The notes below the pieces were generated by a model that worked only from the letters and a program-made list of their open reading frames with translations, was not told where the DNA came from and ran no database searches. DNA of 22,425 bases. It comes from a virus. Where the stretch lies: positions 1 to 22,425 of IMG/VR virus record IMGVR_UViG_3300030109_002138; one strand, given 5' to 3'. Positions within the stretch are counted from its first letter, which is position 1. Each line of letters opens with the position of its first letter. Position numbers and translations under genes: made by a program. This document shows, piece by piece, positions 9,145 through 12,713 of the stretch.

Positions 9145-9924
9145 TTAATTAGTTTCTTCAGTTTCTTCGCTAATAATTTCCCAGTCTCCAACGTTTCTCT
9201 CTGTACTTGTACTACTACTAGGAGGATTGTCTATGTTGTACTGTATTGATTCTTCTTTCCATTCTTCAAAATTCATTCCTTTGTACGTGCCATCATCTTC
9301 AACAATCTCTTCCCATCTTTCTTCATACCCAGGTCTTTGATTTTCGTTAGTGGTTGTAGTTATATCTCTTTGTTCTGTAATGGTAGTTAATAAACCTTTA
9401 TTTATTTCTTTCCACTCTTCATATTGCTTTGGTCTATATTTTCTATACCAGCTGTCATTATAATTATAGACAAATTCAGGATCAGTTTTTCCTTGTTTTC
9501 TAATCCATGTGTCAAAAAGACTTTTTCGCGTACAAGGTGGTAGTGCGTATTTAGAGTCCATGTTACGTCTAGATCTGTAATCCCTTACAAACTGATGGTA
9601 TGAGTCAAGCATTTCTTTACCTTTTTTAAAATCTCGTTTTCCATCTTCATTTTTAAACTGCTGTTGCATGTTAGATATTCTTCTAATTGTCCAGTCTCGA
9701 GCTGTTTCTGGGTTACACTTTCCTCCACCTGAGCTTACGTGTCTTACATTAGTTCCAGGCGTGTAGCTTTTACTAGTTCTTGTTTCAGTCTCAACCTCAG
9801 TATTTCCTGAGTGACCTGCTTCGTGATTAAATAACGGAGTGTTTGATTCCATTTTCTGCATTCCTCTAGGTATATTAGAGTTTGAATATCGAGATGTAAA
9901 AGGATTATTTATTTTAAATGCCAT
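9145..9924 (-). CDS. Unknown protein with NPF/TPL motif N-terminus
   Basis: A 259-residue hydrophilic protein with no family I can name. It begins MAFKINNPFTSRYSNSN and carries SNTPLFNHEAGHSGN near residue 30, so it belongs to the run of neighbouring proteins that share a short S/T/N-P-F/M/L motif. The HEAGH string has the HExxH spacing but sits in a low-complexity N-terminus and is unlikely to be catalytic. The middle (about 75-185) is basic and aromatic-rich with many Arg, Tyr and Trp (CNPETARDWTIRRISNM, WYRKYRPKQYEEWKE) and probably helical. The last 60 residues are acidic and Ser/Thr-rich, ending in EEWKEES and IISEETEETN. Spacing to both neighbours is 2-3 nt. Likely a virion or maturation protein by position; function unknown. 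Confidence 0.6.
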   Translation of the reverse strand: MAFKINNPFTSRYSNSNIPRGMQKMESNTPLFNHEAGHSGNTEVETETRTSKSYTPGTNVRHVSSGGGKCNPETARDWTIRRISNMQQQFKNEDGKRDFKKGKEMLDSYHQFVRDYRSRRNMDSKYALPPCTRKSLFDTWIRKQGKTDPEFVYNYNDSWYRKYRPKQYEEWKEINKGLLTTITEQRDITTTTNENQRPGYEERWEEIVEDDGTYKGMNFEEWKEESIQYNIDNPPSSSTSTERNVGDWEIISEETEETN

Positions 9925-9926
9925 AA

Positions 9927-10271
9927 TTAATATTTTTCAAATGGATCAGTTTGTGAATATGCTTCAGATTCCCATGGTAAGTTTTTATTACCTTCTTGCA
10001 TTTCTTCTCTTGAATATTTTTTTCCTTTCCAGTATACAAACTCATCATCATAATCTAAATCACCTCTTTTGATTTGATCTATGTGAACTTTTTCGTGTTC
10101 TATTACACTTTCTCTTTCTTCTGGATCGGTTATTTTATCTGATACTAATATAGTACCATTTTTATTTGCTTTTCCTAAAACACCTTCTTCTAAATCAACA
10201 TTATGTATAGGTGTATTATCTTCCATAAATGGAGCATTGATTTTAAAACCTTTACTTAATCTAAAGAACAT
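9927..10271 (-). CDS. Small HExxH protein, metallopeptidase-like
   Basis: A 114-residue protein. The N-terminus FRLSKGFKINAPFMEDNTPIHNVDLEEGVLGKANKNGTI repeats the APF/TPI motif of the neighbouring proteins. In the middle is VIEHEKVHIDQIKRGDLDYDDEF: a helix with HExxH (HEKVH) followed about 10 residues later by acidic residues that could give a third zinc ligand, a pattern seen in small zincin-type metallopeptidases. The C-terminal part, YWKGKKYSREEMQEGNKNLPWESEAY, places another Glu (WESEAY), a common third-ligand position. It is much shorter than most metallopeptidases, so activity is uncertain. I recall similar small proteins in uncultured marine phages. It could process neighbouring virion proteins or be a structural remnant. 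The start is 4 nt from the previous stop. Confidence 0.6.
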   Translation of the reverse strand: MFFRLSKGFKINAPFMEDNTPIHNVDLEEGVLGKANKNGTILVSDKITDPEERESVIEHEKVHIDQIKRGDLDYDDEFVYWKGKKYSREEMQEGNKNLPWESEAYSQTDPFEKY

Positions 10272-10275
10272 ATTA

Positions 10276-10428
10276 TTATTTATAAGGAAATTTTTTATTT
10301 AAATAGTTTTGTCTTTCTTGACAACCACAGGGTTTATTAAGGCTGCTGGCAATATTCTGCACAACAGCCTTAATACCTGTTTTGTTAGTGAACTTTGCGA
10401 TTGAATCGCCTAATCCTCTAGACTTCAT
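10276..10428 (-). CDS. 50-residue protein with CGC motif
   Basis: A short gene filling the gap between two longer ones, with 2-nt and 4-nt spacings: the previous TAA is followed by GT and then this ATG. The product starts MKSRGLGDSIAKFTNKTGIK, continues with an amphipathic helix (AVVQNIASSL), and ends NKPCGCQERQNYLNKKFPYK. The ending pattern P-C-G-C-x2-R-x3-LN-x2-FPY is one I recall from small proteins in many phages, including marine ones, with no agreed function; two Cys alone could bind metal only as a dimer. Conserved motif, perfect spacing and normal codon use make it a real gene. An 11-bp perfect inverted repeat lies inside the coding sequence. Confidence 0.72.
   Translation of the reverse strand: MKSRGLGDSIAKFTNKTGIKAVVQNIASSLNKPCGCQERQNYLNKKFPYK
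10335..10375. repeat. 11-bp perfect inverted repeat inside a small gene
   Basis: Arms TATTAAGGCTG and CAGCCTTAATA are separated by 19 nt, within the 50-residue CGC-motif gene. It would give a stable RNA hairpin just after the abundant 143-residue structural gene on the minus-strand transcript. It is not followed by a T-run, so it is not a standard terminator. It might protect the 3' end of the upstream message or slow ribosomes. Confidence 0.5.
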
Positions 10429-10430
10429 AC

Positions 10431-10862
10431 TTATGCTACTGTAAAGCTTCTAAAGTATACCTTAAGTGTTGGGCTGTAAGCAGCTGTTGCATCCGCTGTA
10501 TCTTGCGGTAAACTAACTGAAGACTTAACACCACCTGGGTTAGCTGTAATTGCTCTTTGAATAGCAGCTTTAACTTTATTTACATAATTAGCTGAAGCTG
10601 GTACGTTGTTGTTAGGTGAAGCACCTGCGCCAGCAGCTGTAGCTACTAACATAGTTGCTGTAGTTGGTCCACCACCAGTTGAAAGATTTAATGTTGCTTT
10701 AATAGCGCCATCATCTGGAGCTCCTGCAGCAGTTACTACAACTGATACATTTACAATACTATCTGCTAACAATAAATTGTCTCCATCCATTTGAGGAGCT
10801 GGAGTACCACCTTGTCCAGTAGTAACACCACCTACAACGTTGAAATTAATCCATTTTGCCAT
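10431..10862 (-). CDS. Abundant structural protein, decoration-like
   Basis: A 143-residue protein, low in charge and rich in Ala, Gly, Thr, Val and Asn, with no Cys and no membrane segment. It begins MAKWINFNVVGG, has a Gly/Pro-rich turn (TGQGGTPAPQMDG), a beta-rich core, one helix (ANYVNKVKAAIQRAITA about 93-109) and a final strand LKVYFRSFTVA. The base composition is clearly richer in G+C than its neighbours and the codons are of the highly expressed kind, like the capsid gene. The unusual A-rich leader of repeated CAAAAA directly precedes it. These features suggest an abundant virion component such as a head decoration or minor shell protein; the specific role is inferred. The spacing to the downstream 50-residue gene is 2 nt. 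Confidence 0.65.
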   Translation of the reverse strand: MAKWINFNVVGGVTTGQGGTPAPQMDGDNLLLADSIVNVSVVVTAAGAPDDGAIKATLNLSTGGGPTTATMLVATAAGAGASPNNNVPASANYVNKVKAAIQRAITANPGGVKSSVSLPQDTADATAAYSPTLKVYFRSFTVA

Positions 10863-10880
10863 GATTTTTGTTTTTAATTA

Positions 10881-10904
10881 TTTTTGTTTTTGTTTTTGTT
10901 TTTG
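10881..10904 (-). promoter_or_regulatory. A-rich (CAAAAA) repeat leader of structural gene
   Basis: On the minus strand the leader holds four perfect CAAAAA units and further A-runs right up to the ATG of the 143-residue structural gene. In hosts that do not rely on Shine-Dalgarno pairing, unstructured A-rich leaders favour ribosome entry, so this may be a translation enhancer. A weak 5-bp hairpin (ACAGT/ACTGT) lies just upstream after the previous stop. Confidence 0.45.
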
Positions 10905-10931
10905 GTTTTATACAGTTCCATGACTGTTTTT

Positions 10932-11402
10932 TTATTCACTAGAATTTACTCCAGAACTTGTTAGAGAAAATATTTTATTTGTATCTATTCTACCATCTTC
11001 ATTCAATAATCCGTCTTTTTCTAATTTAGCTGTATCTCTAGCTGTAATATAACTTTGGTATCCTTTAGGATCTATAAGTTTTTGAGCTTGACTACCTGGT
11101 TTTAATTTTTTTGATTTCACCTTGGTTTTATTATCATCTTCATTATCTTTTTTATTTCCTGCTAAAGCTCTACCTATATTAATTAAACCTTGAGTAAATT
11201 GTCTACCACCACTATTTATAGAGGCATAGTTAGATTCAGTGCTTAGTTTGTAATCACCTGGATTAGCACTAACAGTAGGTACAGATATGAAATTTGTAGG
11301 CATACTGCTTTTGTAACTAAATGGTGATCTATTATTAAACCCTATATTAAAAGAATTTTTATTACCTAAAAAGTTTGTTTTATATTTACCTAAAGTATCC
11401 AT
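10932..11402 (-). CDS. Unknown basic protein with SPF motif
   Basis: A 156-residue protein of unknown family. The N-terminal half is Asn/Ser/Phe-rich and looks unstructured (FLGNKNSFNIGFNN), carrying RSPFSYKSSMP near residue 25, the motif shared with neighbouring genes. The middle GGRQFTQGLINIGRALAG (about 67-84) may be a short amphipathic helix. Then comes a strongly charged linker (KKDNEDDNKTKVKSKKLKPGSQ) and a C-terminal part with DPKGYQSYITARDTAKLEKDGLLNEDGRIDTN. The composition suggests a virion-associated internal or assembly protein. It starts 1 nt from the preceding stop and is followed by the longest A-rich leader in the block. No catalytic motif is seen. Confidence 0.55.
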   Translation of the reverse strand: MDTLGKYKTNFLGNKNSFNIGFNNRSPFSYKSSMPTNFISVPTVSANPGDYKLSTESNYASINSGGRQFTQGLINIGRALAGNKKDNEDDNKTKVKSKKLKPGSQAQKLIDPKGYQSYITARDTAKLEKDGLLNEDGRIDTNKIFSLTSSGVNSSE

Positions 11403-11403
11403 A

Positions 11404-11997
11404 TTATCCCGCGTGATAACCCCTTAAAGCAGCTTTTGCCTTTGATTCACTACCATATTTAGCTGGCCAAGGTTTATCTGTTTTATTGCTAATTACTCTC
11501 CAAGATCCACCCATTTTTTTAATACATCCACTACCACCTTCGTCTATAGCACATGCGTTAAACGGTGATCTATCAGACATATTTTCATAATATGCTTCTT
11601 GAGGATCTTGTTGGAAACCAGCTTCACCTCTTTTAGGTTCTTTACTTTTCTTTAACATTTCATAATAAATATCTTGCTCATCACCTTCTGTTCTTCTAGC
11701 TATTCTTTTAGCCTCTCTTTTCATATGCTTATCGGTGTGTCTAGTAGCTGGAGACATATGATTTTTTCTCATATGATTATCAAGTTTCATACCTCCAGTT
11801 TTACTCATTTCTTGATGAGTTTTTCCTGACTCATCTTTCATACTAGCTGGAGAATCATGATCATGTCTAACATTTTCTAAATAATGTAATCTTGCAGAAT
11901 CTGACAAGTCTTTATTATATGCTTCTTTTGCATCATATCTCTCGTCTGCTCTTTTAGAAAAACGAGGGTGATTACCACTATATCTTTTATGTCCCAT
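11404..11997 (-). CDS. His/Lys-rich protein with SPF motif
   Basis: A 197-residue, very hydrophilic protein with unusually many His, Lys, Arg and Met. The first 120 residues look disordered (GHKRYSGNHPRFSKRADERYD; HMRKNHMSPATRHTDKHMKRE) and contain SPASMKD and SPATRH. Around residue 143 is DRSPFNACAIDEGGSGCIKKM, with two Cys. The C-terminal 40 residues look like a small folded unit, GSWRVISNKTDKPWPAKYGSESKAKAALRGYHAG, of a type I recall at the ends of small marine phage proteins. High basic charge suggests binding to DNA or to acidic capsid surfaces, perhaps packaged with the genome. The gap to each neighbour is 1-2 nt. Function unknown. Confidence 0.6.
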   Translation of the reverse strand: MGHKRYSGNHPRFSKRADERYDAKEAYNKDLSDSARLHYLENVRHDHDSPASMKDESGKTHQEMSKTGGMKLDNHMRKNHMSPATRHTDKHMKREAKRIARRTEGDEQDIYYEMLKKSKEPKRGEAGFQQDPQEAYYENMSDRSPFNACAIDEGGSGCIKKMGGSWRVISNKTDKPWPAKYGSESKAKAALRGYHAG

Positions 11998-11999
11998 AA

Positions 12000-12680
12000 T
12001 TAACTCATTTTTGGATCAGAAGAGTAAGCTCCTTTTCCCATAAATTTTTCCATTCCTTTTGATTCGTCTCTACGATCTTTCATAGATTGTTTTTTGCTAG
12101 ATTCTTTACCGTCTTTAGCTAAACTTTCATCTAATCTATCATCGTACCCTTGTCTATTAAATGGACTACTTTTGTGATGATGCTCATCTGCTTTAGTAGA
12201 ATTTCTTGCTACGTGTTTTTTATAATCTTCATCACTTCCTGGATGATTTTTTCTTCCTCCTTTTGCTTTTGCTGGAGAACCTTTAGCATCACCTTTTTCA
12301 ATATCTACTATTGGCATGTCTTTTAATTCTGCTGACTCTCTATTCATTGGTGAATGTGGATGAGAATGTGATCCTTTATCAGTATCATAATTCATAGCTG
12401 GTGAATCTCCTTTTCTATGCATGTCATCTACGATAGGCATATATTTTAATTCATCAACTCCTTGAATTCCATATTTGCTAGCGTTTTCCATAGGTGATTC
12501 ATGACCTGCTTCCATAGGTGATTCATGACCTGCGTTCATAGGTGACTCGTGACCTGCATACATTGGTGAATTCATATACATAGCTGAATCTCTATGCATA
12601 CCTTGCTTTTTTTCAGCTTTGTACATATGTAAAGCTGACTTCATCATTTTTACCGGGTTTTTCTTTTGTGAATAAGGCAT
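12000..12680 (-). CDS. His/Met-rich protein with AGHESPM tandem repeats
   Basis: A 226-residue hydrophilic protein. The N-terminus is basic (MPYSQKKNPVKMMKSALHMYKAEKKQG). Residues about 35-66 hold three near-identical 8-residue repeats, AGHESPMx, encoded by 24-bp tandem DNA repeats, flanked by NSPMY. Further copies of the same short motif are HSPMNRES and KSSPFNRQGYDD, and ELKYMPIVDDM/ELKDMPIVDIE is a second repeated element. His clusters (SHSHPHSP, DEHHHKS) suggest metal binding or pH response. The C-terminus is Lys/Ser/Asp-rich. No known domain is visible and most of it should be disordered. It is the upstream partner of the equally His-rich 197-residue gene, 2 nt away, so both may act together in the virion. 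Confidence 0.6.
   Translation of the reverse strand: MPYSQKKNPVKMMKSALHMYKAEKKQGMHRDSAMYMNSPMYAGHESPMNAGHESPMEAGHESPMENASKYGIQGVDELKYMPIVDDMHRKGDSPAMNYDTDKGSHSHPHSPMNRESAELKDMPIVDIEKGDAKGSPAKAKGGRKNHPGSDEDYKKHVARNSTKADEHHHKSSPFNRQGYDDRLDESLAKDGKESSKKQSMKDRRDESKGMEKFMGKGAYSSDPKMS
12488..12575. repeat. 24-bp tandem repeats inside the His/Met-rich gene
   Basis: About 3.6 copies of a 24-bp unit beginning CCATAGGTGATTCATGACCT, in frame, each encoding the 8-residue AGHESPMx unit. The first two copies are nearly identical and the later ones diverge, consistent with recent local expansion by slippage. The array is coding and lacks spacers, so it is not a CRISPR. Confidence 0.85.
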
Positions 12681-12713
12681 AATTGTTTTTTTTATTGTTA
12701 TTGTTTTTTTTAT

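Follow-up and report, generated by a model that had tools for sequence, protein, structure and literature searches.

An SP[FLM] motif on unrelated small late proteins of uncultured marine phages, a candidate head-cargo targeting tag

Encapsulins, shells of the HK97 fold, take up unrelated proteins by means of a short cargo-loading peptide. The internal proteins of phage T4 have only one thing in common, the capsid-targeting sequence (CTS) (PMC9026906, PMC3012670). The first ten residues are enough for packaging, with residues 4 and 7 mattering for targeting and residues 8 and 10 for cutting (PMC9026906). T4 ipII and ipIII both begin MKTYQEFIAE. Here we describe a short motif, S-P-[F/L/M] (SP[FLM]), that recurs on otherwise unrelated small proteins encoded in a late-gene cluster of a 22,425-base virus record (IMG/VR IMGVR_UViG_3300030109_002138). 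The window analyzed is this entire record, which is probably a fragment. We lean toward reading SP[FLM] as a head-cargo targeting motif borne by a varying group of small proteins, which would be gathered by one phage partner during head assembly. The motif sits where T4-type phages carry a head-sending peptide, and sequence comparison makes it a probable loading tag of a new type. No earlier description of it was found in the literature searched.

Encapsulin peptides, which resemble SP[FLM] in this respect, are C-terminal as a rule and serve a shell rather than a DNA-filled phage head. Like the T4 CTS (on IPI, IPII, IPIII and Alt), SP[FLM] is one short N-terminal signal on diverse small proteins; several unrelated carriers occur per genome, and DUF6321 and CW-GY bodies carry the CTS in other phages. 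It differs in sequence, the CTS reading MK[TS][FY]xx[FY][LI]xE, and in that its sites may be internal and repeated. Also, the gp21/S77 protease was not detected in tagged contigs, where an HExxH protein co-varies with the motif instead. According to the sections of the report cited here (PMC10172136), the Bacteroidota crassvirus phicrAss001 stores viral proteins (gp45, gp46 and RNA polymerase subunits) in its capsid and tail, but this cargo docks on the portal and tail barrel and comprises large ejection proteins as well as polymerases, and no shared short tag is described there.

The preliminary description of this DNA had proposed that five neighboring proteins, encoded by five of seven consecutive minus-strand open reading frames (ORFs; taken as the longest ATG frames), share a motif of the form S/T/N-P-F/M/L. 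All the quoted peptides are found in the genes named and a shared short motif is real, but its definition narrows to S-P-[F/L/M], sometimes SPA, usually N-terminal, and SP[FLM] is clear in only three of the five, the proteins of 226, 197 and 156 amino acids (aa). The 259-aa and 114-aa proteins have none. Compared with within-protein shuffles, SP[FLM] was enriched in the five proteins (8 found, 0.47 expected, p=0.0002) and was absent from the other 22 proteins of the window, where 1.5 were expected. The looser [STNA]P[FMLI] was found 12 times in the five against 1.67 expected, and 5 times elsewhere in the window against 10.25; the reversed motif did not occur in the five. Taken one at a time, the 226-aa protein alone was strong (SP[FM] 6 times against 0.17 expected), and its count is partly inflated by one 24-bp tandem repeat. 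Without this protein the signal was weaker (2 against 0.27, p=0.03), with the 197-aa and 156-aa proteins each reaching a nominal p of about 0.04 for SP[FM]. The window on its own thus gives moderate support for the motif, and the relatives decide.

Twelve long contigs were compared using one protein per family, with the module defined as the genes between GroES and a 201-aa gene upstream of the terminase gene (TerL). Many of the contigs used in this study are fragments, and they are related to one another, so that counts are not independent. SP[FLM] occurred 33 times in the module against a single occurrence of the reverse [FLM]PS, and in the rest of the genome 29 times against 19. SP followed by any other residue gave 20 against 28 for its reverse. 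The broader S/T/N-P definition was rejected in these relatives since the serine is specific: TP[FLM] was found 5 times against 5 in reverse, and NP[FLM] showed only a mild excess (11 against 3). The motif is biased to the N-terminus, its density per 1000 aa being 8.3 over residues 1-20 and 1.0 past residue 120. It lies within the first 50 residues of 246 proteins, or 115 after removal of near-copies and 102 once core structural and other doubtful matches were dropped. The consensus is [SKRN]-S-P-[LFM]-[NK], and typical tagged starts read M[AG]Y[KN]Q..N[NS]P[FL]..K.SPLN and MSSPFQ..F..KSPLK. The bodies behind the tag are unrelated and include HExxH proteins, DUF6321 (E=2.5e-23), a CAxxEGGSGC domain and many proteins without any family. 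Tagged genomes encode two to nine such proteins (one in the fragment G009). Taken as a class, the protein families of capsid, portal, terminase and chaperonin have no tag. Tags are concentrated in the late-gene cluster but are not confined to it, a few tagged proteins being encoded elsewhere. The tag therefore marks a genome-wide protein class concentrated in the cluster.

The position of the motif is also conserved. The serine and proline of the 156-aa protein are invariant in 31/31 non-redundant homologues, the remainder of which diverges; the third residue is solely F (16) or L (15), and the motif stands at the 95th percentile of the protein's conservation. In the 197-aa family, S49, P50, S144 and P145 are invariant in an 18-row alignment. 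All three sites of this protein fall in segments with pLDDT below 50, i.e., predicted to be disordered, and the SPF at residue 144 immediately precedes the CAxxEGGSGC body, which likewise stands directly behind a tag in three other contigs (L288-L290). Sites 93 and 172 of the 226-aa protein are kept in its homologues, with proline in 17/19 at each.

The main reason for favoring head targeting is that swapped bodies carry a T4-type CTS in other phages, whose contigs were gathered by a search with a tagged DUF6321 protein. DUF6321 and CW-GY bodies had the SP tag in 10 cases, a T4-like start in none and neither in 13 in window-like contigs; in the other contigs, 20 had a T4-like start and 2 the SP tag (Fisher p=1e-6). 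An example is the CTS-type MKTYKEFLFESPAWTRKEG compared with the SP-tagged MGYIQSNSPFLKKTAAWTRKEG. A strict CTS (F/Y/L at position 4, F/Y at 7, L/I at 8 and E at 10) was matched by 14/48 DUF6321/CW-GY-type bodies, with about 0 expected from shuffled N-termini. In window-like contigs it was found on 0/24 such bodies and 0/391 other ORFs, and none of the five window proteins has it at the N-terminus. Where T4-like starts occur, the signal is often on two to four proteins of a contig, and one carrier (L241) is part of a 160-kb T4-like record that encodes homologues of gp20, gp21 and gp23, the T4-type portal, protease and capsid. As an argument from domain context, the swap suggests but does not demonstrate head targeting. 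The S77 (gp21) prohead protease family PF03420 was present in the T4-like G023 and absent from the 16 SP-lineage records searched, which include long ones, a negative limited by the fragmentary records.

Gene placement suggests a head role for the unnamed DUF6321 domain, as its genes lie between the scaffold and major capsid genes in Pelagibacter phage Jormungand (L312) and Synechococcus phage S-CBP4 (L313). These two are T7-like marine phages; in Syn9 and S-RSM4, DUF6321 is encoded near the gp16 gene. When the phage collection was searched with the DUF6321 query, Marine virus AG-345-E15 came out best; it was set aside as T4-like and untagged. In viral contigs of no assigned type (L212-L286), starts of the form MK[ST]F..[FY][LI].E are found on several unrelated proteins per contig, including nucleotidyltransferase-like GRFNPPT.GHE proteins. 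Such starts would be a ready way to list head cargo.

A concerted change of the motif provides further evidence. Fourteen contigs have a module without SP[FLM] and with 5-10 copies of GAA[KR] across three or four unrelated proteins, and a fifteenth (L021) has genes as in these. They belong to the lineage of the window, with TerL about 80% identical, and no GAA[KR] was found in the module of SP genomes. The exchange takes place right before one and the same body in two cases, SSPFLKAGKGCAES vs RLGAAKAGKGCAES and SSPLDKKVSWKYG vs HHGAAKTVSWKYG, and a third pair shows a similar context (HSHPHSPMNRE vs HDHPHGAAKMG). Tagged proteins encoded outside the module of GAA genomes also read GAA. A joint switch of one motif in several unrelated proteins would be expected if they share a partner that acts in trans. 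Together with the conserved positions, the unrelated bodies and the absence of the tag from whole protein classes, this gives good support to the earlier suggestion of a shared binding tag, recognized in trans.

The preliminary description had named the HExxH protein and the chaperonin as possible docking partners. Identity of the GroEL proteins between SP and GAA genomes lies inside the SP-SP range, so that no co-variation speaks for the chaperonin. The link to the 114-aa HExxH protein, in contrast, is supported both by co-variation and by co-occurrence with tags. HExxH proteins of SP genomes are 64% identical to one another (48-99), compared to 37% (28-43) between SP and GAA genomes, and this is the sole family among 21 conserved ones to separate the two types. 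TerL, portal, scaffold, major capsid protein and the genes after it were considered as co-varying partners and none separates them. In the protein tree, the type B HExxH proteins group as a single clade (100/100); on TerL, at least two changes are required. With an HExxH gene within 9 kb upstream of TerL, tags were found in 38/56 contigs, compared to 2/18 without it (p=2.7e-5). A search of the genome collection for this link returned mostly contigs that are short or lack the module. Residues H59, E60 and H63 of the HExxH motif are invariant in 22 sequences. The AF2 model (pLDDT 80) resembles PDB entries weakly (best E=0.14, TM about 0.3) and SprT-like phage proteins in BFVD more clearly (E about 2e-4); the fold may be that of a small HExxH metallopeptidase-like protein. 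The 114-aa protein shares with the phage SprT-like/HExxH proteins its PHROG (16532, 10499) and fold matches, and differs from them in a link to a tag system, seen through co-variation only. The APF and TPI of the 114-aa protein, once counted as tags, were rejected: they are part of the conserved N-terminus of the family, and FKxxPF, with F and K conserved, stays in GAA genomes. A role of this protein as the reader or processing enzyme of the tag is possible and is put forward tentatively, with less confidence than head entry itself; co-transfer of neighboring genes and shared ancestry remain alternatives for the link.

Of a packaging signal, a protease site and a docking motif, the options raised earlier, virion or head targeting fits these sequence comparisons best. 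Under head-cargo targeting, the tagged proteins would be made along with the late genes, and the partner would hold them via SP[FLM] while they are enclosed in the prohead, motif repeats adding extra binding. The HExxH protein may then cut them in the prohead, as gp21 does in T4, and the cargo would enter the cell after infection. A fuller version, somewhat doubtful at present, is a second, independently evolved head-cargo system of tailed phages in which SP[FLM] is read and perhaps cut by a dedicated small HExxH protein, GAA[KR] is the counterpart code that co-evolved in a sister group, and cargo domains have been exchanged with T4-like phages by swapping the tag only. If head targeting is true, many nameless marine phage proteins become a recognizable class of probable injected head cargo that can be listed from sequence alone, and foreign proteins could be loaded into phage heads by means of this short label. 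Phages would also have evolved address labels for head cargo separately, exchanging cargo domains across labels.

Another explanation is that SP[FLM] serves mainly as a cutting site, or an exosite, through which the HExxH protein would process many small virion or assembly proteins, with targeting secondary or absent. Among the families compared, the HExxH protein is the one to change type along with the motif, and its presence goes with tags; AGHESPM x4 and similar arrays resemble multiple sites, and no S77-type prohead protease was found in the tagged contigs searched. However, the peptidase activity of the HExxH protein is putative, the fold match to known peptidases in the PDB is weak and the residues flanking SP[FLM] are variable, so we consider this unlikely as the main function; T4 combines processing and targeting, and the two are not exclusive. 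Less likely again is binding of the motif to a host factor inside infected cells, the proteins being host take-over proteins with one host target. As small, mostly disordered and rapidly changing proteins that carry a short linear motif, they would fit host-targeting effectors, but the set is located among late genes beside holin, terminase and spike, its motif state follows a phage protein, and identical body types carry a head-targeting sequence in other phages.

The similarity could also have arisen without a common partner, if the N-termini were recombining leader copies and SP-rich disordered stretches had spread by duplication and tandem repeats. The 226-aa gene has such a repeat at the DNA level and many N-termini are alike (M[AG]Y.Q..NP). 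This seems very improbable given that selection retains S and P in 31/31 divergent 156-aa homologues, that internal sites ahead of folded domains are conserved, and that in several proteins one motif state stands in for another, unrelated one, which drift by copying would not predict. As for chance, disordered proteins might yield SP[FLM] by composition, through their content of Ser, Pro and hydrophobic residues; the proteins are Ser/Pro-rich and disordered, and the 226-aa protein is the single one of the window with an overwhelming count of its own. This we regard as scarcely credible, being refuted by the shuffles (window 8 vs 0.47) and the reversed motif (module 33 vs 1).

Several findings weigh against head-cargo targeting. 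The GAA switch comprises one main clade and two contigs (L011, L025), amounting to one or two independent events. In these two contigs, a GAA-rich protein adjoining the HExxH gene came along with it, and such co-transfer of neighbors could explain part of the HExxH-motif link, for which the co-occurrence statistic also ignores phylogeny. Many homologues of swapped bodies bear neither tag (13/23 in window-like contigs). CTS-carrying contigs other than L241 are fragments in which T4 head markers are absent, their T4 kinship being deduced, and the DUF6321 proteins of the T4-like cyanophages Syn9, P-SSM4 and S-RSM4 have no CTS at their own N-terminus. A close relative, G004, is entirely without tags. 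Finally, tagged proteins are missing from the cultured relatives (Elemovirus, Cellulophaga, Maribacter and Tenacibaculum phages), so packaging has to be inferred, and their annotated structural proteins were ruled out as a shortcut to it.

The untagged G004 (record of 76,964 bases, also L076) has a TerL 77% identical to that of the window, has lost its tags and has a very divergent HExxH protein. It is also without a 75-aa family (VGIVGE..IWDGPL) that is present in all tagged genomes.

The features of the window are listed in Table 1, with gene roles assigned by homology and gene order.

Table 1. Motif-bearing genes and other features of the 22,425-base window
Feature	Position	Strand	Remarks
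259-aa protein, variable slot behind the HExxH gene	9145..9924	-	NNPF...NTPLFNH
114-aa HExxH (SprT-like) protein	9927..10271	-	would read or process the tag (candidate role)
Two ORFs without the motif inside the cluster	10276..10862	-	50 aa (10276-10428), 143 aa (10431-10862)
156-aa tagged protein	10932..11402	-	one site, NRSPFSY
SPF codons, aa 26-28 of the 156-aa protein	11319..11327	-	
197-aa tagged protein	11404..11997	-	SPA at aa 49, SPA at 82 (relatives: SPM), SPF at 144
SPF codons, aa 144-146 of the 197-aa protein	11560..11568	-	
226-aa tagged protein	12000..12680	-	SP[FMA] at aa 38, 46, 54, 62, 93, 110, 135, 172
24-bp tandem repeat coding AGHESPM(N/E), 3.7 copies	12486..12575	-	in the 226-aa gene
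Other genes of the window and the motif cluster		-	major capsid protein, scaffold-like protein, portal, terminase (TerL), holin, motif cluster, S74-type spike, GroES, GroEL

The TerL of the window is 30-44% identical to those of Flavobacterium Elemovirus and of Cellulophaga, Maribacter and Tenacibaculum phages, and 63% to that of one environmental phage. Closer matches, up to 92%, are hundreds of marine viral contigs. Relatives binned with genomes fall mainly with metagenome-assembled genomes of Bacteroidota, and the lineage probably consists of uncultured phages of marine Bacteroidota.

MPYSQKKNPV, at the start of the 226-aa protein, resembles the M[AG]Y.Q..NP with which other tagged proteins begin, and the copy number of the protein's AGHESPM(N/E) repeat differs among relatives in the alignments. 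A fold search with the 197-aa protein gave no match; its C-terminal 40 residues (aa 156-195) are 70% identical to an unannotated human-faeces phage contig, MT837925.1. The slot behind the HExxH gene (window 9145-9924; L085:11969-13255; G012 11166-12698) holds differing, mostly non-homologous proteins among relatives, most of which share a similar tagged N-terminus. The NNPF...NTPLFNH of the 259-aa occupant resembles the bipartite tag of others, e.g., MGYKQSNNPFSRRTSSPLFSGHN in L093. A single truncated homologue of this protein was found, too few for a conservation test, and its residues 93-182 gave a sub-threshold match to Peptidase_S78_2 (XkdF; E=0.013).

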